A stretch of DNA of 64,000 nt, from positions 372,001 through 436,000 of the forward strand of contig JALUTQ010000040.1 in the NCBI GenBank assembly GCA_032718865.1, read 5' to 3'. The stretch comes from Tilletia caries (taxonomy: Eukaryota; Basidiomycota; Exobasidiomycetes; Tilletiales; Tilletiaceae). Below are positions 1,121-64,000 of this stretch, in pieces. Position 1 is the stretch's first letter. Each line of letters opens with the position of its first letter. The position numbers and the translations under genes were made by a program. Below the pieces are notes generated by a model, which saw only the letters and a list, made by a program, of their open reading frames with translations, was not told where the DNA came from and searched no databases.

Positions 1121-1638
1121 TGCAATTCAAGTGAGTTGACCGGGCGTTTCCCTCGTCCCTCAACGCCTCAACGCAAGTAAGGTCGTTCCTGTCAAAAATT
1201 GATGAGGTTCCTGTTCGGTCAATGGTGGAAGATGAAGCGACGGACGCCCGCTAGCCTGGTCCCCCGCACTCCGTTTGTCCTTTCGACGCCGGTGAGCGTG
1301 AGAGCGACCCAGCGAGAGGAAAGGAAAAGGGAGATGGTCGATGGACGATGGTCCTTGCTCGGTCTTCGCTCGTGCCGCGAATGGGTTTAAAGTGGTTTGC
1401 TTCTCGAGGGCCCGAGCGAAGTCAACCTCGAAAGTTTCCCTCCCAGAGACGCGCCGCGCGTGAAGGCGTGAGGGTGACGCGGTGACGAGGGGGGAGAAGG
1501 CGGGGGAGGGGACCCAAGTGAGGTGAGGCGATGGACGGTTGCGTGGCCGTCCGGGGACGCGATCTCACTTCGAAGACCGTGCCGCCTCATCTCAACCTCG
1601 CCCCCCGCACTTCCAACCCAAGCCGGAGCAGCAGGAAG
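1121..1638. other. Intergenic, promoter side of the transporter
   Basis: No open frame with recognisable protein features on either strand. It presumably holds the 5' flank of the transporter gene. The MITE that follows is inserted at its right edge. Confidence 0.5.
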
Positions 1639-2192
1639 GAGAAATTTCACAGGATGACCCCCATTTTTATCTAAGTTGACAGAATGACCCTCACCTTATC
1701 TCTTCACAGGATGACCCCCTCCCAGAAAGCAGAGGAAAACCTTTCTCTACTGATCCACACCATGACCACAGAACGAGGCGAACACAGCTGACGTTTGGCA
1801 CAAAGCTTTGCGCGCCTACAACAAAGCCAACAACGTTGAAGGTATTGAAATCGAATCATCCAAAGATGAGCAGTAGATGCTGAGAGAAGGGTCAATTCCA
1901 AGGCAAAATTCTCTCGGCCGAGAGGCGCTCTTTGTTCGCTTCGTTCTGCCCTTTTTTGCGCGGACCATTGCTCGACGGTGCGTCTCTCGAATTGTCAATA
2001 AAAAGCGGGAGGAGCTTCAGCGTGGGTAGCCGCGCTGCCATAGGTAGTTTGGACGTGTTCGAGCCTCTGATCGCCGTGGCGGAGCTTTTACTGGACATCC
2101 GAAAGTGGTGGTTCCAATCGGGGGGTCATTCTGTACATGAGGGTCATTCTGTCAACTTAGATAAAAATGGGGGTCATCCTGTGAAATTTCTC
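1639..2192. mobile_element. Mutator-type MITE, 554 bp, with 9-bp target duplication
   Basis: Perfect 55-bp terminal inverted repeats at 1639-1693 and 2138-2192, beginning GAGAAATTTCACAGGATGAC. The direct repeat AGCAGGAAG lies immediately outside both ends (1630-1638 and 2193-2201). Further copies of an ACAGGATGACCCC-like motif lie just inside the repeats. There is no transposase frame. A 9-bp duplication with long inverted repeats is typical of Mutator-like (MULE) elements, so this is a non-autonomous MULE-type MITE. The identical arms and perfect duplication suggest a young insertion. Confidence 0.9.
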
Positions 2193-2296
2193 AGCAGGAA
2201 GCTGATGGGGGTCAACTCTTTCTTCTAGCACAGGTCAATCTCGGTGTCCAGCTGTCCACTGACTGTCCAGGCGCTCGAGTGTCCTGAAGCCTGAAG

Positions 2297-2438
2297 TGTA
2301 ACAAGACCTACTTGCCCGCACCCAGTCTTACCTTGTAACTCCCTTCTGTGACCCTTCGAGGGCATCCTTCACCTTCCTTTGAGCACCCTTCTCTTGCAAT
2401 ACATCGATCAGTCAGTCATAAAGAAGTTAGTTGTTACA
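2297..2438 (+). repeat. LTR-A, upstream copy
   Basis: 142 bp, TGTAACAAG...GTTGTTACA. It appears identical to 5904-6045. The primer-binding site starts at 2441 (TGGTAGCTCCGCC). Confidence 0.9.
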
Positions 2439-2831
2439 ATTGGTAGCTCCGCCAGTTAAGGTCGCAGGGCGACAAGTACGGTAGCTGTAGGACAGCTTCG
2501 TCGACCAAGCGCAAGGCGCTCTCGGTCAACCTCGGATCCCAGCTCGCGAGGCGAGTTTCCGCTCGAGCAAGGCGCTCGATCCGGATAGTCCAAGGCAAGT
2601 CCTGTAAGACACAGGCAGGTCGGCGCTAACCCCACCGACCTCAGTCCTCTTCCTCGCCAGAAGAGCGTATCCCCTGGGGCTTGGCCGACCCCGCACCCTC
2701 ATCGCCGCCGGCGCTTGTCATCCCGGCGACATCCGCCCTCTCACCAGAAGGCACACCCGAGCCCGACAAGCTCACACCAGCCTCACCATCCTCTCACCGT
2801 CCTCCGCCCTCCTCGCTTCTTCTGTTGGAAC

Positions 2832-4202
2832 ATGTCTTCGTCGGACGAAGATCAGTATTACGACGAGTACAGCGAGGACGGATCGGTCGACGAGTACTCC
2901 GACGGCGGCTCGAGAGACGCCGACGAGTACGACGATCAAGATGTCGACGCGTACGACGATTAGTACGAACCCCAAGAGGCAGAAGACGATGATGACCGAG
3001 GCAACGATCATGAAGACGACCAGTACGAGCAAGGCTTCGACGACGGCTACGATCAAGGCTATGACGACGGTTACGGAGACGGAGACGATGACGCAGCCGC
3101 CATGGACGAAGGCACGGAAATCCAAGACGAGGTCCAAGACGAAATCCAAGACGTCAACGATGATGTAGGCGAATCCGATGCTGAAGGCAGCCGCTTCGAT
3201 GATCATTCTGGATCCGAACACGACCCTGCCCCCGACGACGTCAGTGTCACATCAGCATCTCCTCCCCCCGCCGTTGGCCGTGCCTCTCCCAATCGCCATC
3301 AGAGCAGCGTTCACCAACAGGGTCGTTCGAACGACTCCGACAGCGACAGTGACCCTGGCTTCTTCTACCTCCCATCAAAACCACAGACCGACGACAGCAT
3401 CTTCAAGACCAGAGCCTATGGCGGCCGGCATCAGCTCGGCAGTCCATCAAACGGGAGCGGCAGCAGTGGACCAGCGCAGGACTCTCTTCAGCCCTCGAAC
3501 CAGCGCCGAATGGAGACACATCTGCGCCAAATGGAACCCTTCCGACATGAGTGGGATTCGGTTTTGGGGATCCGAGAGCCGGGGATTCCGTACAATAGGT
3601 CCCTCCTAGGACAGCCCCGAACACCCCTCCTTCCATCCGAATATCGGCCCACCTATGGTCAAGGATCTCAGTCCTTCAGGCGTTCTGCTCCTCTTGCCCT
3701 CACGACCACCAACCTCCCTCGTACCCGGCCTTCCTCGTCCTCGGTGCCGACAGCGACGAGAGGCACACGAATCGCCTTTGCGCTCCCTTCGCCAGCCGCT
3801 TCAAGAGCTGGCAGCAACACCTCTTCGCGCGTTTCGATATCACGCAGTGACTTGGACGGCATTCTCGATCGTCTCGCCTCCCTCGAAACGCGCTTGGCCG
3901 ACGCCGAGAGAGTGCACTCTCCATCCATCGCCTCCGCCAATACATCCCTCAAACAACAAGACAAACGCGACATGAGTTGCTTCCGGTGTCATCAAACCGG
4001 ACATCTCGCGCGCGACTGTCCGCTGCTTTCATCAACTCCAGGCGACGCCCACTCCCACGTTCCTTCTCGCCCCTCCCCTCAGTCTTCTACTTCAATTCCG
4101 TCTGGGTCTTCCACAATGAGTCGGCCTTTCGCTCCAATTTCCTCTGAACCTTCAGCAGCACCAACTCGTCGGTCAGCATGCACGCGAACGCGCCGGATCT
4201 AA
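2832..4202 (+). pseudogene. Gag-like protein with CCHC zinc knuckle, in-frame stop
   Basis: The frame opens with an ATG at 2832 and encodes a strongly acidic, Asp/Glu/Tyr-rich leader. An in-frame TAG occurs at 2961-2963, after 43 codons. The same frame then continues open to the TAA at 4200-4202; an internal ATG at 3102 could start a 366-residue product. Near the C-terminus is a retroviral-type zinc knuckle, CFRCHQTGHLARDC (CX2CX4HX4C), as in nucleocapsid/gag proteins that bind RNA. A short helical Leu-rich stretch precedes it (DGILDRLASLETRLADAERV). No pol domains follow; the next feature is LTR-B. Either the stop is a mutation or translation begins at 3102. Confidence 0.7.
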
Positions 4203-4250
4203 ATGCTCGTGGCCCTCGAGGGCGAGGGCCTGTTCGTTGGTGGGAGATGT

Positions 4251-4392
4251 TGTAACAAGTACTCAGTACCTCCCGATGCTTCCCCCCTTGAGACCCTCTT
4301 CTCAGACCCCTTTTCCTCCTGTATGAGCCCCTACCTTTCCCCCTCCATGCAATTGACGTCCACCAGTCAGTCAAGAATCATTAAGTGTTACA
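4251..4392 (+). repeat. LTR-B, middle, divergent LTR
   Basis: 142 bp, the same length and termini (TGTAACAAG...GTGTTACA) as LTR-A and sharing the GTCAGTCA motif near its end, but otherwise different. It is followed at 4393 by the same primer-binding site and preceded by the same purine tract. Confidence 0.85.
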
Positions 4393-4448
4393 ATTGGTAG
4401 CTCCGCCTTGTCCGGTTTGGGGAGGGGGTATGGGCGGTATATTCCGCG

Positions 4449-5717
4449 GTGTGGGGGTTGGCCAGGCCCCAAGAAGTAGACATCTCCTGGCGAGGAAGAG
4501 AAGGCAGAGGACAGCGGGGTGAGCGCAAACTGCGGTCGGGTTCGGATGGATGGCCGAGTGACGGACAGGGGCGCGCGAGCTTGCCTGCCGTGGGTGGGGT
4601 CCTGCGGGACGCGAGAGGCGGAGCTACCAAGATCCTTGCTCAACTGCAAGCGGACATTACGGGACTTCGGCGGGATACTCAAGAGCTTCAACCTCGTGAA
4701 CCTGCGGCCACACGTCGATGGTCCTCGACTCGATCCACCGCTTTCGCTCCCAGTCCGACTCTACTCACATCGCGACCTCGTGCAGAAGAAGGCCCGGCTA
4801 CACCTTTCCGTCCTCGCCGCTCGGATGCAGCCTCCAATCTCATGCTCGGCGCAGAATCCGTCACACGTTTGTCCGTGTCCCCCGCTCACACTGCCCCTCG
4901 CCTCTCCACCCGACAATGCGACGACGACACTGTCGAACGTCGAGACGCCAAGGCGACACCGACAGAGCTCGACACTGAATACAACGGCAGGCATCAGCAG
5001 TTTGAGTTTCATCGGCCCAAATCAAAAGATATCGGCGTATTCGACCCCGACAAAGTGAACGTGTTCAACTGGTGGAGAGGACTGGCGCAATTCTACGAAT
5101 TCAGCATGCACACTGAGGATGAAGTGATGGCAGCAATGCCGGGATGCTTTGCCGGCGCCGCGAGGACCTGGTTCTCCAATCTGGCCCCTCCTCCTCGATC
5201 GCTCCTTGAGTTGAGAGCGAAGGTGTTTAAAGCCTACAGCCGCCCCGAGTCTCACATCAGCGAGTTACTGGAGGAGAAGACATTCATCCCCGCCGCCGGA
5301 ACCCTAGCCGAATACCTCGACGACAAATACAGTTTGGTCACAGAGCTGCACACGGCAAGGGCAGTCAGTCGCGGGATGCTGGACGCCGACCCCCGTTGTC
5401 TAGACGCCGTTATGACCACAACAACAGTCCGGGATGCGATCGAACAAGCTCACAGGGGACTGCCGGCGTACTGGCAGACGATATTGGACGCATGTGCACG
5501 AACGGCAGAAGACTGGGCGGACTATCGGTCATCGATGCTCGCCAACGAAAACCGCACACGACAAGCCGTGCTCGAGATGGCGTCCATGGTCGACCTGGCC
5601 TACCGCAGTGCTCCAGTCTCGCCCCCACCTTTACCCGAACCCGGCTCGTACACCGGCGATGTGTTGGGGGATCAACATGTCTCGCCTCAAAGTGTTCAAA
5701 ACGATTATGCCGCCTAG
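4449..5717 (+). CDS. Ty3/Gypsy-type Gag (capsid) protein
   Basis: Open frame of about 420 codons. The 4449 codon is GTG and the first in-frame ATG is at 4842, so the true start is uncertain. The C-terminal half has the layout of a retrotransposon gag capsid domain: NVFNWWRGLAQFYEF, then a Trp-containing helix (AARTWFSNL), then LLELRAKVFKAY, then a Leu/Val-rich helical region. This domain assembles the cytoplasmic particle. No zinc knuckle is visible and no protease or pol follows; the frame ends shortly before LTR-A. It is unrelated at sequence level to the upstream zinc-knuckle Gag in the same element. Confidence 0.7.
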   Translation: MWGLARPQEVDISWRGREGRGQRGERKLRSGSDGWPSDGQGRASLPAVGGVLRDARGGATKILAQLQADITGLRRDTQELQPREPAATRRWSSTRSTAFAPSPTLLTSRPRAEEGPATPFRPRRSDAASNLMLGAESVTRLSVSPAHTAPRLSTRQCDDDTVERRDAKATPTELDTEYNGRHQQFEFHRPKSKDIGVFDPDKVNVFNWWRGLAQFYEFSMHTEDEVMAAMPGCFAGAARTWFSNLAPPPRSLLELRAKVFKAYSRPESHISELLEEKTFIPAAGTLAEYLDDKYSLVTELHTARAVSRGMLDADPRCLDAVMTTTTVRDAIEQAHRGLPAYWQTILDACARTAEDWADYRSSMLANENRTRQAVLEMASMVDLAYRSAPVSPPPLPEPGSYTGDVLGDQHVSPQSVQNDYAA

Positions 5718-5903
5718 TTCTCCATCGAGATTTGAGACGCAATCACAGCTCTCTACCTTCCCTTGTCAGCTTCCTTTTCACCTTCACCCTTCGCCACTCT
5801 GATACTCTCATTTCACTTCGCCAACCATTCGCATTGCCCCAAGGGATCGGCTTAAAGGCTTGCAGCCCTCGAGGGCGAGGGCTTGTTCGTTGGTGGGAGA
5901 TAT

Positions 5904-6045
5904 TGTAACAAGACCTACTTGCCCGCACCCAGTCTTACCTTGTAACTCCCTTCTGTGACCCTTCGAGGGCATCCTTCACCTTCCTTTGAGCACCCTTCTC
6001 TTGCAATACATCGATCAGTCAGTCATAAAGAAGTTAGTTGTTACA
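5904..6045 (+). repeat. LTR-A, downstream copy
   Basis: 142 bp, appearing identical to the copy at 2297-2438. It is followed by TGAAGCCTGAAG, the same bases that precede the upstream LTR. Confidence 0.9.
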
Positions 6046-6352
6046 TGAAGCCTGAAGCGCTCCGAAAACAAACGCAAACACGTCAAGCCGAACCAAGCGT
6101 GAGAAGCAGGTACGCGCCCGGGGGCGGTATAAATCGACCGAACACACTCCGCTCCCCTCGAGTGGCAAAACAAGAACCCGTACTTCTAATAGATGAGGCG
6201 ATGAGGATTGATAGGTACACGAGAAAGCAAGTCTCCCACCGCCAGACGGAAGTCGTACCGACGACAGAGAGACTCGAGCACCGGGAAAACGATGCCCCCC
6301 CCCCCCCCCTCCTCCCGCCACGCTCGCCCTCGTGGCAGCCCATGGCCCCCAA
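6046..6352. other. Intergenic, 3' side of DBP7
   Basis: No coding feature recognised. It contains a run of about 15 C at 6294-6310. It probably includes the 3' untranslated region of the minus-strand helicase gene. Confidence 0.5.
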
Positions 6353-9300
6353 TCATCCAATCTGGAACTCCTCCGCCCCCCCAAAAGCACCCAACACCCC
6401 GCCCTTCCGACTAACCTTGCCCATAGCCCGAACCTTCGCATACATCCTCGCCTCCGCATTCGTCTCCTTCGTGCCCTGTTGCGACGCTCCGCGTCGGTTC
6501 GTCGCCGAGGCGGCCGCCGCCGCGTGGAGGGCCAGTTGGCGCAGTTGGGCGGGCGTGGAGGCGAGCTTGCCTTGCGGAGGGAGGTCGGGCGAGTCGTCCT
6601 CGTCGTCGTCCTTGTCGCCGTGTCTTGTGCTGCCCGTGCTCTGTCGGCCCTGTCTCCGGCCCTTCGCACCCGCACTCGTATCCCTGGAATCCAAACTCGC
6701 CCTCCCACGCTTCCCACCCTTACCCATATCTACGCCGCCCGCCTTAGGCGCATGCGCAAACTTCTTGATCGCAGTCGGCGCCTCCCGCAGCGCAAACGCC
6801 TTGGCAAGGTGGCCCAGGTGGAGAAACTTGGTATGGAAGATATGCTTCTCCGCCGCGGGGTGGGTGGCGTAGGCGCGGATGTGGGACATGTAGGCCTTGC
6901 GCGCGAGATTGGCGGCCTTTTGTAATATCAGAAAGGGGTCAGTCTAGGAAACGGAGGGGGAGACGCCTTTTTCGAGGTTCGAAAGAGAGAGAGAGAGGGG
7001 GAGACTCACATCTTCACTACTAAGCACCCACCGCTCGAACGCAAGCTGAACATCCGTCGCCCGCGCCTCATACTCCACATCAGCAACCTTCCCGCCAAAC
7101 CCCTTCAGCAGCACCTTTTCCGCCTTCTCCTCATGCACCTTAACCCGACTCACCCCATTCCCACCTTCCCCCTCGACACCAACCCCACTCTCCAAGTTGT
7201 TCACCCACACCCGCTCACTCTCCAACAGGATCAACCAACTCTCGCCCCGGTTCCCCACGCGCGCCGTACGCCCGATCCGATGGACGTACTCCTCCACCCC
7301 GCCCTCCGTCGGCGCGTCGAGCTGGATGACCGTCCGGACCGAGGGCAGGTCCAGCCCGCGCGACGCGACCGAGGTGCACAGGAGCACGGCGCCTTTGAGC
7401 GGTTCGGCGGTCTGTTGCTGCTGCTGAGACTGGGCCTTCTTCTTGTTGGTGCTCGTGCCCCGGCCGGAGAAGGCTTTGAGGGAGGCTACTCGCTCGGCTT
7501 GTGTCATCGAGCCGTGCAGGCGGAAGATGGGCACGGAGGGGAGTAAGTCCGAGTGTCGCGTCACTTGCTCTTCGATCGTCTTCGGCTGGCCCTTCGGCTT
7601 CTTCTTCACCTGGGGCCTCCTCTTCTTCTTCGGGTCGTCGTCATCACTACTCTCCTCCTCCTCGTCCATATCATCATCCTCATCGGGCACATCATGCTCC
7701 TCCTGCCCGCCCATCTTGGCCCCACCAAGCGCGTCCCAGTGGAAATCCACACTGTCCGTGCAACTCAGGAACACAATCACCCGGTTCTCCCGGCCTTTAC
7801 TCGTCGGCGTGGCGTCAGAGCGGACCAAGGCGCGCAGGAGGGCCAGAAGCGTGACCAGCCGGAGCTTGGGCGGGACGACGATGAAGTGCTGGGCGAGCTG
7901 GGCGGGAGCGAGGAACTTCGCTGTCGATGGTTGATGGGCGGAGGAAGACGAAGAGGTACCCTCGGCCGAGCCCGACGGAACGACAGCAAGAGCACCAGCG
8001 TCCTGCTTCTGATACGTTCCCGCCTTCTGCTTAGCGTCCCGCTCGGCCTCCTGAGCCGCCCGTTCGTCCTCGGCGGTGGGTTTGAGGATGATGGGATTCC
8101 GCAAGGTGGCGCCTGCGAGCGCTTGGACACTCTCGTCGAGCGTGGCGGAGCAGAGGACGGTCCTTCGTGGGATCTTCCACCAGTGGATGCCGAGCGAGTC
8201 CGGCAGGTCGGCCTCGGGGATCTGGGGACCCTTCTTGAGGACGCTGTTGGCGTTTGCGCCCGTGGGGACAAACGTCGAAGGGAGTTTTGTCTTTTTCGTC
8301 TTGTTCTTCTTCGGTCGGGCATCTCCAAAACCATATCCCTCCTGACGCTCTTCATCTTCGTCTTCGCTCTCGCTCTCGTCCTCGTTTTCGAGCTCGGCGA
8401 TGGCGATGCGTGCCTTGCTGACGGCGACTTTGCGACGGGACTCGAGAATCTGGGTGATCTCCTTGAGGGCCTCTTCGAAGCCGAGATCCATGAGTCTGTC
8501 GGCCTCGTCGAGGACGAGCCACTGGAGTTTGCCGACGTCGAGGGTGGATGTGTTCTGGAGATGGTCGAGCAGTCGACCGGGGGTGGAGACAATGATGGGA
8601 CATCCCTTTCGCAATCTCATCTTCTCGTGTGTGCGTGTTGCGCCGCCGGTGAGGAGACAGGGCACGAGCCAGCGAGAGTAGTGTCGCTGATCGATGTTGT
8701 CTTCTTCGTTGTCGTCTGTGGAGGTGGGGAGGTGCAAGCTCATGCTGAGGATGCGTTCGAGGACGTCGTAGATCTGCCTTGCGAGTTCTCGAGTGGGGGC
8801 GAGTACGATGGCAAGGGTGCCGATGGAGCGATTGATGAAGGATTCTTGGGAGAGTGGGAGGAGGTGATGCAAGATGGGGAGGAGGTAGGTGAGTGTCTTT
8901 CCGGATCCGGTCTGGGAGTGGATCATCAGGTCGTGGAAGATTCTGGGAGGAGGAGGAGCGTTCTTGTGAGAAGGCGGGGACGGATAGAGGGTGTACTTGG
9001 TATCGGCGGCTCGGAGGAGATCGGGGAAGGCGCGTCGCTGGATGGCAGTGGGACGGAGGACCTGCATGCGAGTGGTGAGGTGCTGTACGAGGAGGGGATG
9101 AAGCTGGAGACGTTCGAAGGTGATCGGTCCTGAGACGGAGGGCGCGTTGGTTGGTCGAGCGTGTGTGTTGGGTGTTTCGGCTTCGTCTGCTGGAAGCTTG
9201 GCCGGATCTGGAGTGTGTGTACCGAAGGATCGTGGGAAGAGGGAGGAGATGAAAGTCTTGGGCTGTGGTTTTGACGGCGCGGAGAAGGCAAAGTTGGGGT

Positions 9301-56393: not shown

Positions 56394-56524
56394 TCCGAAC
56401 GGTCACCCGTTCGGGCGGAGCCCGTACTCACAACACTGATTCACGCATTTCACAGATCACTCCGTAGTCTGATCACACCAGACCGGCGGTGATCAAAGAG
56501 TCACCTCCACGCGCTTATCAGAAC

Positions 56525-56533
56525 TGTCGCCGC
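56525..56533 (+). repeat. Target-site duplication, left copy
   Basis: TGTCGCCGC, matching 63854-63862 exactly. Confidence 0.88.
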
Positions 56534-56582
56534 TAATCACGACCCGTGACCCCCCGCTTGTCGGGGGGGTCACGCGACGAGT
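56534..56582 (+). repeat. Left terminal inverted repeat with internal hairpin
   Basis: TAATCAC at the tip. Stem GTGACCCCCCG (56546-56556) pairs with CGGGGGGGTCAC (56562-56573) around loop CTTGT. It ends with GACGAGT, matching GACAAGT of the right repeat. Confidence 0.85.
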
Positions 56583-56998
56583 TTCCAAAAACTGGCAGAG
56601 CTGGCTGACCAAAACGGCCAAATGCCCTCCTTTCCACAGCTCCCAGCTCGAGATGCAGCTTATGAAGATCTCTTGACTCTGTAACAATATTTTGAGATCG
56701 CGTGTATCAGTATCTTCTTGCGGAGTTTGAGAATCCTAGCTATCGTTGGGACCGTGTGGGAGGGTGACTTGCAACTTCGTTTTTTCAAGATTGAGCACTG
56801 AGCCGCTGAGATTCTGTCACGACTCACGAGTCACGCGTCACGACTCACAACCACTCTGATTGGATTCAGCACCACTGCGCAATAAACGCATCTGTTCTTG
56901 AGATTGATACGCGTCTGCCGTTTGTCACGCATTGTTTGAACCTTGCCAGTTGCCAGTGAGCCAGAACCATCATACCATGACAGTACCAAGTTACCAAT

Positions 56999-59823
56999 AT
57001 GCCTCGCACGCCGCTCGCTAATGTCAGCAACAACGTACGTCCTCAAACTCGGTCTCAGCGTTCGTCAAAGCGCAAAGCAGCTCGAGATTCCAGTCCTGCA
57101 GAGCCGCAACAGCCCTCAACATCGGAGCAGTCAACTGATGCGGCGCGTCGTTGCAGGCCCAGGCGCAGCCGCACAGACGACAGAGATGGAGAGATGGACA
57201 AGGAGGAGGATTGGGAGGACGAATCAGACCACGAACAGGACGGAGAACACTCGGTCGAGTCCCAGAAGGAGTTCATGCGTCGAGCCCAGGCGGTGATTCG
57301 GGCGGCACGAAATGACGCAGCTTTTTCAACTTGCTCACTTTCAAGTTGAACCTGTGCGTCGAATGCTTCTTGGGCACGATGGCATAGTCATGTCTGCGAC
57401 AGGGTCTGGAAAGTCAATGTTGATGGAGCTTGCCGCCCGGCTTCGCCCTGACATGACCTTCATAGTCGTTTCTCCGCTGCGATCTCTTCAGGAGGAACAA
57501 GTGAGTCCCACCTTCATGTACACTGGCCCATTATTCTGTTGTTTCCATATCTCTGAGTTCCAAATTCTGACCGTGTTGTGACTTGTGATATTCCTTATTG
57601 GGTCTTCATTGTCCATATCTCCATCGTGATTCACACAGGCGTCGAAGTTCAAGGGTACAACGATCAAGGCCATCAATCTGGACGCAGAGACCCTGAGCGG
57701 AAGAAGAGAGGTTATACCTGATCTCCAGAGTCAAAGGTACGTTCTCAGTCTTGCGTACAGAGGTCAGAGTGTGCGTGTTGTGGGCTTAATGGGTACAACG
57801 GAGCCTGGCCGCCGAGTCTTTGACACCTGGACTTCCGGCTCAGAGATCTGTTCATTGGGATGGGTGGAATTGAATGCGCTCTAGGTTCAGGGTGCGGAAC
57901 CCCGATTCTCGACGCAGGTCGCAGAGCAGGATTCAGAGACGGTTGGGAACTTGGGTTGGAGACAGGAACAGAATGGTCAATGAATGAGTCGCTGTCGACA
58001 CTCGGAAGAGTACATGTACATCTTGATCTGTTGTGACTTGTGACTTTGTGCTAATCAGGACTCTCTTCATCTTTGCCTGCAGTGCGACGAGCAGCAGCCT
58101 TACGGAAGAAGAACGGAGGCAGAGCCGTCGCGCGCAACTGCTGGCAGAATTGAAGCGTGGCGCGTTCAATCTGATCTTTGCCTCTCCAGAGACTCTGATT
58201 TCCAACTCTCCCGTGTCTCACGCCCTCTCGCAGAAGAGCTTTCGGGCCAAGGTTGGCGGAATTTTTCATTGACGAAGCCCACGTCGTCGACGAATGGGGC
58301 ACGCAAGAAAGTCTCCGCACAAAAAGAAGCCTTTCGACCCGACTTTGGCAAGATCCGTGTGCTCCGGCACCTCGTTGGAGCCCGTGTTCCTGTGCTTGCC
58401 TGTACCGCCACGCTTCCTTCCAGCACCCTCAAGACCGCCTGGAGAGTATTGGACTTTGGCAGACAAAGCTTCTTTGCCTGTGATGCAGGAACAGATCGTC
58501 CCAACATCAGGCTCGAGGTGCGCGCCATGTCCTACAGCAATACCTCGTTTCGTGATCTCGCTTCCTTCTTCTCCCCCCTTGCAAAAACAGCCCGAACACA
58601 TACCCAAGACAATCATCTATGTCCGGACCAAGCACGAGGCATACAAGGCAGCAGAGGCCATTAAGGGTTTTCTGGATCCCTGCCTAGCCTCCACCGTCTG
58701 CTCGTTCACGTCTCTGGGCACCAATGCGCTGAAAACCGACGTGCTGCAGCGCTTCTACAAAACGAGCGGTCTTCGGATTCTGGTGGCGACCGAAGCTGGA
58801 GGAATGGGACTCGATGTGGCCGATGTGGATCTCATCATCCAGTTTCGACTCTCTCGAACGTTGACCGAGTTTTTTCAACATGCGGGAAGTGCCATGCGGC
58901 AGCTGAGCAAAACAGGGGTCGCTGTTTTGTTGGCTGAGTCGTGGGCTTTCGAATCAAACAACATCCGGAACAACCTCACCACCACCACCAACTCCGCTTC
59001 TCAACACGCTAGTACCAGCCATTCTGCCGCCAGAGGCACTGGCGGAGACGAACCATCCTCGGCCAAAGCTGCTCGGCGAGCCAAAGTCGAGCCCGCGCTG
59101 TTGCGTTTTGTTCAGGGTGGCTGCTGTCGACGAGCAGTGGTGATGGAGTCGATGAGGATGGATTTCGAGTGGATGCATTCTCAGCTGATCGAGTCTTCCT
59201 TCTTCTTTCTTGCTTCACCGCACAACACAGTCTCACCGCAATTACCGTTCATGTCGGATTCCTCTCCGTCTCACAGCCGCATGCAAGCATGTCTCTGGAT
59301 CGAGCCATCGAGCGAGCGACGCGAATGTGCAGCCACGTCATGCTGCGACGTTTGCGTGCCCGACTCGCCATTGAGGGTGTTCGACATACGCGAAATACCC
59401 GAAGCCGCCGAATCTTCCCGCTCAATTAGAGCCTATCGTTTTCCACGCCCACATGCAGCTCTGTCCCCTCTCCGTCTCAGCCTTGGGCAGCATCTCCTGG
59501 ACTGGCGGCACCAACTATTTCAGCAGCGAAGAACGCATGGAGGGTTTCTTCCCTCTCCCGAAAGCGTTCTCTCTGATCTCAGTGTGGTTCGCATCGTAGC
59601 GATGGCAGGGCGCATAGCGAAACTAGGAGCAACCTATCATCGATTCGACGTGGAGCCGCTTCGGCAGCTCCTGGGTACCGAAGCGGACATCTTGCCCGCT
59701 TTCTTTTTTCAATCTCTCTCCGATGCTTGCTTTACTTGGGCACGTCAGTCCACTGCTCAAGACTTTGCAAAGGATCTCACCAAAGGTGGTGACTGGCGTG
59801 AGAAGAAAACACATCAAGCTTGA
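56999..59823 (+). pseudogene. RecQ-like superfamily 2 DNA helicase, frameshifted
   Basis: ATG 56999. Probable introns are 57501-57638 and 57737-58082. Motifs: VMSATGSGKS (I), FIVVSPLRSL, LIFASPETL, FIDEAHVVDEWG (II), VPVLACTATLP (III), KTIIYVRTKHEAYK (IV), ILVATEAGGMGLDVADVDLIIQF (V), and QHAGSAMRQ at motif VI where RecQ enzymes have GRAGRDG. A RecQ-type zinc region follows (GCCRRAVVM...ATSCCDVC). Family-like sequence changes frame at about 57320, 58262, 58290-58325 and 58575-58590, each at or near a run of five or six identical bases. Introns cannot explain these breaks. The basic-acidic N-tail precedes the helicase. Probably once unwound DNA during transposition of this element (inference). 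Confidence 0.8.
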
Positions 59824-59897
59824 TGGTGAGTTTGGTTTTTCCGCACGCAACAGTCAACACTCTGAACATCGCATGAATTCACTCCTCTTTGCCCGGA

Positions 59898-62800
59898 TTA
59901 CATCTCATTCAGAAGTCCACCATCGCTCCTCTCTGCAGCGAGTCGCGCTCGCAGTCCCCTATCCGCTTCGTCCCATTGCTCGTCATCCACACCATCGCCT
60001 GCTCCTTCGTCGCCGGACTCGCTGCTTTCCTCCTCGTCCGATTGTCGCACCACTGTCTTCAGCATTGCCTCCCGAATCGAAAGTGCATCTCCTGAGCGTT
60101 GGAACTTGCGCAAGCTGCCGTTGCGAAGTTTGGACCATCCTTGTGAGATGATATCGTCGACATGAATCTTGCTGTGAAGTGTTTGAAAGTCTTTCCATGC
60201 GGCTGCAACAGCTTTACCATCTTTTTTGCGACCCTTCTTCCTTTGCACAGCACCCTCCAGACCACGATGCGGAGTCACAGTGAACAGCCGTTTGCCTGTT
60301 GACGTGGATTGTATCAAGGTGATGTCTCTTGACGCATCTTTCGCTGTGCGTTGACGGATATGAAATTGAAGCCCAAGCTGGGCACTCGCCGTGATCTTGG
60401 TTGCTTGAGAGACGTGCGGCAGTGCCGAGATTCGGTCTTCCAGGCGTTGTCCAAGATCGGAACCACTCTGCGTCCACGCTGTAGCCTGCTCATGTACAAG
60501 TGAAGTCAGTTCTTGCACATCGCCTGGCGCCATCTGATTCAGGACGCGGTGCGATGTGCTCACCTTTACCTCTTTCACAAACGTCTCCTGTAGATGATCG
60601 GCTGCCTCCCAATCTCCCGCTCTTCCATGCCTGTTCACCAACGACGCCCCGTACAAGACTCGCAGGGCCCGGGATGGAAGGACCTTGGCCGCAAGGGCGC
60701 GACTGAGCAGATTGTTCTTGTAGTTATGTTGTCCAGTGGCGATGAAGCCGAGAAGCATGTATCTCTCCGTTTGCGCCATGCGACCGATGTCTCCTTTCTT
60801 CGTTGCGTCCTCGTATTCTATCCCAATGAGAGAGTCCCGCAAGAACAGACCTGCCGCCGCCTTCACTTGGTCCTTGTTCTGTTGAGCAGTGACCACCGCT
60901 TCCGGAGAGATATGATCACGATACAGGCGGCGACAGGCTGCAAAGAAGTCGCGCTTCGGAGGTGTCCATTCTGCTATATTCCATTCCTCTCCCATAACGG
61001 TGCTGAAGATTGAAGAGCTTCATGAGCATGCTGACCGGATAAAGACGCAGCGACAGGACAAAGCTACTCACTTCATGGCCGCAAGAAGTCTTCCTTCGAA
61101 AGTATGTCGTAGCAGGGCCCAACCCTCGTTGAACTGAGGCTCCTTCTCGTTCAATCCCGTCTTTCCGCGATTCAGCATCTCTCGCACTCGATCCAGCGAG
61201 AGATCTGACCCTGCCTTGCCAGTGAGATAGTTCTGACGAAAGAGCAGCCTGGTCCATGCTAGCAGCATGTGCCATGGCGCGGCCCAAGGAGCCAGGAACT
61301 TGAGTTGATTGATGGGTTCGGGCTCGTCTTCGGACACCGCGACAACGCTGAGGATGTTGTTGACCGTAAGCAGGTCTCCCACCACTGGAAGAGCCTTGTC
61401 GCCCACATTCCATCCCACATCTCTCATCGTCTGATGCAGCACTTGCTGCATTCCCGACAAGTTGCCTTCGTCCTCCTGTACGAGTTTGAGAGGGTGGATT
61501 TCAGTCTGAGTAGTGGTGAGAACGTCAATATCGTGATTTCGACGCATTCGGTGGACCTCGGACAAGATCTGCTTTCGGCGTCGGCGAGAGAGCTTCATGT
61601 GACGAAAGAGGACCTCACTGATGTGGATGAGTGCTGCATCGTGTAGAAAAGACTCGTCCGGTTCGAGATCCTTCACTTGGAGTGCTGTTTTGTCCGCCAA
61701 TCTGAGCGCTTCGCAGTCTTCGATCGTCAGGTCTGCGGGTTTGAACTCAGGTCCCAGCTCCAACATTGTACGCATCGTGAATGAATGCATGGTAGGACTC
61801 TGCTGTATCCGTTGCTCAGCGGGGCGAACGTATATGTTGATGTTGTCCAGCACAAAGATTGGTATCCGATCGTGCTTACGAGCCGAGGAAGCAGCTTGTT
61901 CCACCATACGTGTCGACATCGACGTCACAGCTCGATAGGCATAACGCTGAGACGCTGTGATTCCGGGGCGATTGAGGAAGTTGAAAATCAGCGACGATGT
62001 GTTCGAAAGCTCGCAGAAGACAGCGTTGAGGCATTGGAATCGATTGCATTGTCGACTCTGCGAGAATAGTAGAGCAGAGATGACTACCGTCATCGTCTGA
62101 AAGGCATAGAAAAGATGTCAGCTCAGCGCTCATTTGACAGGTCACAGGGTCACGTTGCGCATCTATACTCATACCCTTTCGGCCTTGCTCATCGGCCTGA
62201 GATCTGAATGATCAGAATCGTCCACATCCATCGCATCTTCATCCTGGTCCAACCCTTCTCCTTCCTCTTCATCGTTCTCCTCCTCCTCCTCCTCCTCCTC
62301 CTCCTCCTCCTCCTCCTCTAATCCTTCTCCATCTGCCTGCGCTTCCCCCTCATTGTGTTCGTCCTCACTCTCCCCCGGGTCTCCATCAGAAGCTGTACCG
62401 CTCCCATCCACGTGTCCGTTCAATTTTGTTGTATGGTTGGTGGGAGAAGTCGGAATGAGATGGCGAAGGAAGGTTGAGGTTGTCGGATATCGCTCCTGAT
62501 AATGGTCGAGGAGGGCAACCCATTGACCTTGTCCTGAAGCAACCGAGTCTAACGTGGCCGAGGGAGTGTGCAAAAAAGAGTCGCGCCGGCAGTTGCGTAG
62601 CTCGTTCAGCATGACTTGGGCTGCATAAGTCATGATGGCATCGTTGAATTGGGCTTGGGCGGCGGGAACGGCTCTTTCCTTGACGTGCTGAATGAGTGAC
62701 CGAACGAGCTCAGCTGGTCCGTATGTAGAGATAGCAGAACCTGCTGCGCCAGTGATCCAAAGACCGACCCTTCTATTTGCCGCGTCAGACCTGCTCAACA

Positions 62801-62903
62801 GCATCTCAGTTAGGAAATTTTGAAGTTGTAGTTCATTGTCGGACATGGCATCCAGCACAGCGTCAATACGCCGGGTCTTATCGTCTGAGAGTTTCGTTGC
62901 CAT
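59898..62903 (-). CDS. DUF6589-like protein, candidate transposase
   Basis: Exons 62903-62175, 62096-61072, 61002-59898 join in frame to 952 residues. The N-part is helical, followed by a long Glu-rich run (CTC repeat, 62280-62320). The middle carries the blocks that I associate with the fungal DUF6589 family: PIFVLDNINIYVRPAEQRIQ, then about 120 residues later HDIDVLTTTQTEIHPL and WNVGDKALPVVGDLLTVNNILSVV, then APWHMLLAWTRLLF. The Asp of VLDNIN and the Asp of VGDLLT sit at strand ends, as in RNase H-fold transposases. The C-part contains LYRDHISPEAVV and GFIATGQHNYKNNLLSRAL and ends in an acidic tail. It is intact, unlike its helicase neighbour. The assignment to DUF6589 is from remembered motif pattern, not a search; transposase function is inference. 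Confidence 0.7.
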
Positions 62904-63792
62904 AGCTGAATGCTGATCGAAGAGAAAAGGAAAAAAGTCATGTAAATGCGTCAGCTTTCAGCGTCCTACATCGAGCATAAAAGCAGAATGTGTAGGAGAC
63001 TAGAGTCTAGAGCCAATCGCCAACTGGTGATTGTGAAGAATCCCATCTGGGCTCAGCTCACCTTAATCGCTTTGCTGTGAATCTCAGACTTATAAATCCA
63101 GGCACAGCCAGTACACACGTCGAACAAGGCAGAAATACCGATTTGAATTGAGCAGTGTTCTGAAAAATGCGAAAAAAACACTGGGGGTTAGGCTTAGGCA
63201 TCATTGTGAAATAGTCGCGCAAGTGTTGATGATAAAAGGACACTCCGCACTCACATATACCGTATACGAGGACTGAGGAGGCGCGGATGTCGTCTTCTGA
63301 TGAACTGTGCACGGTTGGGAATTAGGAAGTCAGAAAGATGACGCTTGCCGCTTGGAGAGAAGACTAGAATGACTACGCGGTACTCACACTTCACAGCTAC
63401 GTGACGACAGGACACGCGCACGAGAACCCCGCAAGCACAACCAGCAAGACTGCCAGGAGTCACCGAAGGCTGCGCGTTGGCTCTTGATGCGCGGTAGAAG
63501 GAGGGGATGTGCCTGTTGGAAGGTTGGGACAACAGTAGAGGATGGGGAAAGAGTCAGCAGGGAGGAAGAGGGGAAACAGTATAGATGCGATAGTCAGCGA
63601 GCGCAGAGACAGAGAGAAGAGGTCAGCGTGTGATAGGAACTGTTGGGCCTTGATATCTGCTTGCTCACAGTGTGCAGATGGGCTTGCTCGATGTTGACGT
63701 GAGTATCAGCAGCAGGATCGCATCTGGCAGAATGAAGGGTGATCGTGTGTGACTTTGGTAACTCCGCTTCCAGCTCTGCCGGAAACCTCAGC
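62904..63792. other. Right-hand non-coding part of the RecQ/DUF6589 element
   Basis: About 890 bp between the DUF6589-like start codon and the right inverted repeat. No convincing coding exon seen on either strand; presumably promoter plus terminal sequence. Confidence 0.45.
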
Positions 63793-63853
63793 ACTTGTCA
63801 TGTGACCGCCTTGCGGCGTCGCCGGGCACGCCGGCGGTCACACGTTGTGATTA
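63793..63853 (-). repeat. Right terminal inverted repeat with internal hairpin
   Basis: Stem TGTGACCGCC (63801-63810) pairs with GGCGGTCACA (63833-63842). GTGATTA at the tip (63847-63853) is the complement of the left TAATCAC. Confidence 0.85.
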
Positions 63854-63862
63854 TGTCGCCGC
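63854..63862 (+). repeat. Target-site duplication, right copy
   Basis: TGTCGCCGC, directly after the right inverted repeat. Confidence 0.88.
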
Positions 63863-64000
63863 GGTGGCGGTCTGGACGCACTCGACCCGATTTTGTTAGT
63901 AAGTGCCCGCAAATTTTGTAGTCAACTTCGTTCGAAGCCCAACTTCGCACACCAACTGCATCTCGAGACACAAACGTACGCACATAAAACTGCGCATGAG
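63863..64000. other. Flanking sequence beyond the transposon
   Basis: 138 bp to the window end; nothing recognised. Confidence 0.4.

Follow-up and report, generated by a model that had tools for sequence, protein, structure and literature searches.

A RecQ-like helicase gene and a gene of the Pfam family DUF6589 (PF20231) lie tail to tail between inverted repeats in the genome of Tilletia caries, which raises the question of whether the two genes form a single mobile unit and, if so, of what kind. The stretch analysed here, which we call the window, comprises 64,000 nucleotides of contig JALUTQ010000040.1 (assembly GCA_032718865.1, forward-strand positions 372,001 to 436,000), and the putative unit occupies window positions 56534..63853. 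We found that this element has moved in the past, as is evident from its copies, from the private target site duplications (TSDs) that flank them and from empty sites, and that several related families, its own among them, populate this Tilletia genome. The element is probably a DNA transposon with two ends and of the AcademH kind, a group that reportedly originates from Kojima 2020 (Mobile DNA 11:15), with DUF6589 as its DDE transposase and the convergent RecQ-like helicase as an accessory protein.

The limits of the element are sharply defined. The left terminal inverted repeat (TIR), TAATCACGACCCGTGACC, lies at 56534..56551 on the forward strand, and the right one, TAATCACAACGTGTGACC when read inward from 63853, at 63836..63853 on the reverse strand; over their first 20 bases the two ends match at 16 positions. 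Directly outside them stands a perfect 9-bp direct repeat, TGTCGCCGC, at 56525..56533 and again at 63854..63862, both on the forward strand, as the preliminary description of this locus had reported. The hairpins that it had noticed in the matched inverted repeats were likewise borne out by folding of single-stranded DNA: the left subterminal hairpin (56545..56574) has a z score of -3.26, with none of 200 shuffled sequences folding as well, and the right one (63801..63842) a z score of -2.06, equalled or bettered by 5 of 200 shuffles. Hairpins are a clear feature of family A, to which the window element belongs. Their generality is unsupported because, among eight ends from four families, fold scores are weak at both ends of family C (-1.17 left, -0.43 right) and at the right end of family D (+0.26; left, -3.63), family B scoring -2.93 on the left and -1.94 on the right. 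Nothing in the window matched Rfam at gathering thresholds.

Searching the genome (38.1 Mb in 40 contigs) with the element recovered five members with two ends, namely the window element itself (contig C35 in our numbering), copies on C34, C32 and C9 that are 98 to 99.5% identical by segment, and a copy on C36 at about 94%. The latter four share the left TIR exactly, and each has kept both ends and carries its own exact 9-bp TSD, which is what had been predicted for a mobile unit with these termini. The search also returned broken pieces on C4, a right end alone on C5, and two shorter relatives on C3 (2,942 bp) and C21 (4,767 bp), in which the outer 127 bp on the left are 71 to 72% and the last 52 bp on the right 90 to 92% identical to the element. 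The C21 relative (L016 375-5141, C21:656374-661140; 4.8 kb) has TAATC ends and a 10-bp TSD in which 9 of 10 bases agree, and it encodes a helicase that is 45 to 52% identical, with no DUF6589 match. Because the helicase is present and DUF6589 is not matched, this relative may be moved in trans.

The empty site provides a second line of evidence for movement. The window element is inserted into another dispersed repeat, 69 bp from the end; the left end of this host repeat (56465..56533) begins with TAGTCTGATCACACCAGACC. When both flanks were joined with one copy of the TSD and used as a query, 43 matches were obtained, two of which are the window's own flanks; most of those elsewhere start at or near query base 82, which corresponds to window position 56465. 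In 23 matches a single alignment crosses the junction, starting no later than base 84 and reaching at least base 245; nine of these matches have 96 to 100% and 14 have 88 to 90% identity. An intact copy of the host repeat, L077, reads TGTCGCCGC and then GGTGGCGG, which is identical to the predicted empty site, here found in sister copies of the repeat. A family C element on C28 gives the same picture, as three other copies of its surrounding repeat (L064-L066) have a single GCGCCGAACT at the site.

The host repeat itself (56465-56533 and 63863-64000 in the window) has a TAGTC-type end like those of families B and C, and it may itself be a further member of the superfamily, with its far end beyond the window. 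Other copies of it are broken near the same end by inserts. Among the four such inserts examined, those on C35, C34 and C1 do not start with TA[AG]TC, and the fourth, a 219-bp insert on C7 (L074 37-255), is bounded by TAGCC...GGCTA ends, bears a perfect 9-bp direct repeat and may represent a short non-autonomous relative. A preference for the ends of related elements is neither shown nor excluded by these inserts, three being unlike and the one on C7 possibly alike. In copies L070-L073 and L075-L076 of the host repeat, the inserts near this end have termini of other kinds, which may mark the stretch as a hot spot for insertion in general.

Duplication of the target site extends across the families. 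We mapped the ends of 14 elements, to which family A with its subfamily contributed seven, family C four, family D two and family B one; the C4 pieces, in which the left end is missing, and the single end on C5 were left out. Twelve of the 14 are flanked immediately on both sides by an exact direct repeat, which measures 9 bp in eight and 10 bp in four, and when left flanks were compared with the right flanks of other elements, none of 182 comparisons gave a match of 8 to 11 bp. The 10-bp duplications belong to three of the four family C elements and to the single family B element, whose ends came from a scan that required a direct repeat. The two exceptions are the imperfect repeat on C21 and a family D copy on C33 (L051 ~1403-8308), which is 99.4% identical to its twin on C7. 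Unlike the twin, this copy has no terminal TA at either end and no TSD; either a changed junction or a difference in assembly would account for this. At C7, the family D repeat can be read as 9 bp, with TAGTC ends, or, one base further in, as 11 bp. End sequences are TAATC in family A and TAGTC in families B and C and in family D at C7. For families F (C23) and G (C25:272-282 kb), no ends were located in the stretches examined.

The gene most likely to encode the transposase is DUF6589. On the reverse strand of the window, two open reading frames (ORFs) span consecutive parts of the PF20231 model: the middle part of the gene (61068..62093; E = 7e-29), with the predicted catalytic Asp residues (LDN, VVGDLLT), and the 3' part (59898..60995; E = 1.1e-23), with the predicted catalytic Glu (ADHLQE). 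A probable 5' part (62169..62903, reverse strand) contains an acidic low-complexity stretch and resembles the start of an unnamed Tilletia controversa protein, P0001, to which the middle ORF is 97% identical. Three protein searches returned 3, 16 and 2 proteins, and all named ones are from Tilletia except one from Cyclocybe aegerita in the third search. The structural model of DUF6589 predicts an RNase H-like core with a helical insertion ahead of the last acidic helix, and the predicted catalytic residues D90, D285 and E527 are conserved. In Foldseek, transposases headed the listing for this model, with unrelated outer-membrane proteins from rank 8 and no match of any kind at E ≤ 0.001. The fold matches are to hAT (Hermes), P element, RAG/Transib and ISCth4, which would share with DUF6589 the RNase H-like fold with a helical insertion; they differ from it in sequence, with 7 to 11% identity in the listed structural alignments, and their TSD lengths are unlike those of DUF6589 elements. 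Taken together, the predicted fold and the conserved DDE residues indicate that DUF6589 is likely a DDE transposase.

Mutator-like elements also make 9-bp TSDs, and one that had acquired a helicase would resemble the window element. We consider this very unlikely, since both window DUF6589 ORFs match PF20231 alone in Pfam at E values up to 1, the family C ORF matches PF20231 plus one weak, sub-threshold, unrelated model, and the TSDs of family B and of most family C elements measure 10 bp. No Mutator-like Pfam match was found in the window or family C DUF6589 ORFs.

The partner gene lies on the forward strand within 56999..59823, where the outer limits are those of ORFs and not of a gene model. 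A Helicase_C domain (58597-58899; Pfam E = 1.5e-10) lies inside the ORF 58294-59823, and upstream of it are a Walker A motif (ATGSGKS) near 57396 and a DEAH box near 58271, so the convergent arrangement in the preliminary description stands, the helicase lying opposite a DUF6589 gene that is split over two ORFs. The motifs are spread over different reading frames; the residues directly before the DEAH box are the same in the window and C9 copies and differ in those on C34, C32 and C36, a pattern as expected from a frame change. The helicase of family C matches RecQ helicases, best of all the Bloom syndrome protein (E = 6.8e-15), and the window helicase is 24% identical to the family C helicase (E = 3e-24). 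Genome-wide, the RecQ_Zn_bind profile (PF16124) matched two places, neither of them at a DUF6589 locus. Helitrons, which carry a Pif1-type helicase, move by rolling circle and have neither TSDs nor TIRs, were rejected on the grounds of the TIRs, the 9- to 10-bp TSDs and the RecQ-type helicase of family C.

Convergent pairing of the two genes is near-fixed in this genome. Counts from genome profile searches are lower bounds throughout; PF20231 was found in at least 75 places, which merge into 48 DUF6589 loci. A search with the window helicase gave a convergent partner within 3 kb for 31 of the 48, and these partners account for 31 of the 33 loci that the query found, the other two having no DUF6589 neighbour. 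In a wider set made up of all 115 Helicase_C places and one place from another helicase search, a helicase lies within 5 kb of 42 of the 48 loci, in every case in tail-to-tail orientation. About 1.6 such pairs are expected by chance, and 1,000 rotations, with the largest coordinate seen taken as the end of each contig, never gave more than five. The six loci with no helicase within 5 kb are C1:1389758, C13:496601, C3:1466037, C40:1373302, C40:1395899 and C40:1731921; four of them have stops inside the match, which could reflect introns or decay, and the same-strand helicase 6 kb from C13:496601 belongs to a neighbouring locus. Helicase genes are common in this genome (at least 115 Helicase_C places), and ordinary host genes could in principle ride as passengers in an unrelated element. 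This explanation is scarcely credible, being contradicted by the genome-wide pairing, which recurs in elements with different ends, by the transposase-like predicted fold of DUF6589, and by the four window ORFs scanned with Pfam, in which DUF6589 is the sole transposase candidate seen.

These observations are consistent with a model in which DUF6589 would bind the TIRs and subterminal repeats, cut both ends and join them to target DNA with a stagger of 9 to 10 bp, from which the TSD would result. The RecQ-like helicase would act as an accessory enzyme whose most probable task is to unwind DNA, either at the ends or in a gapped transposition or repair intermediate, and movement would be by cut-and-paste rather than replicative. 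The likely transposase role of DUF6589 means that 'hypothetical' DUF6589 genes and their helicase neighbours should be counted as mobile DNA, in the genus Tilletia at least and perhaps wherever DUF6589 occurs, and a Pfam family of unknown function would gain a probable activity. The near-fixed pairing makes the transposon's need for a helicase directly testable, and the set gathered here, which brings together several families, mapped ends, TSDs and empty sites from a single genome, offers a clean point of departure.

How does the element compare with known systems as they are described in print? Subtelomeric RecQ helicase repeats of fungi are also multicopy, but they are telomere-linked (PMC4522978, PMC5576322), whereas the Tilletia genes lie in TIR elements with TSDs at contig-internal sites (for example near 1.12 of 1.30 Mb on C28 and near 0.43 of 1.55 Mb on C35). 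KolobokH, the Kolobok lineage that carries a RecQ helicase and is confined to fungi, resembles the window and family C elements in joining such a helicase to a DDE transposase, and in one red-alga Kolobok RecQ is encoded on the opposite strand (PMC9587614). However, Kolobok elements have 4-bp TTAA TSDs and 5'-RR ends, and the KolobokH helicase is placed downstream of the transposase domain (PMC9587614), whereas our elements have varied TSDs of 9 to 10 bp, TA ends and a helicase on the opposite strand. KolobokH was excluded because of its TTAA duplication, and we regard it as highly improbable. AcademH elements, by contrast in TSD length with AcademX (3 or 4 bp), make TSDs of 9 or 10 bp, a difference that has been tied to their helicase and nuclease (PMC10045372). 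They are low-copy in Basidiomycota, Ascomycota and Mucoromycota, DEAD and Helicase_C domains are linked to both AcademH and KolobokH (PMC10799480), and Academ is among the DDD/E superfamilies (PMC9587614). The Tilletia elements have TSDs of the same lengths, a helicase in the same element and, by prediction, DDE residues in an RNase H-like fold. A separate, undescribed superfamily, defined by DUF6589, TA[AG]TC ends and the convergent helicase, could be AcademH-like in TSD and genes with an unrelated transposase. Two points weigh for it: Pfam still lists DUF6589 as of unknown function, and the term was absent from the 5.39 million open-licence papers searched, in which neither an assignment of DUF6589 nor its near-fixed helicase pairing was found. 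We nevertheless think a separate superfamily unlikely, as TSD length, helicase and fungal range all agree with the published AcademH summaries; that such a superfamily would depend on a near-obligate helicase to open its often hairpin-forming ends or a gapped intermediate, in helicase-assisted transposition, is a shade more doubtful. AcademH thus appears to be the best-supported name, resting on published descriptions of TSD length, helicase and fungal range. The preliminary description was right in proposing a bounded mobile unit that joins the two genes, but its suggestion that the unit is a novel type of DNA transposon with a helicase of its own is not supported, because fungal helicase-carrying elements with 9- or 10-bp TSDs have already been named AcademH (PMC10045372, PMC10799480), with KolobokH as a second lineage (PMC9587614), and the window element seems to be of this known kind.
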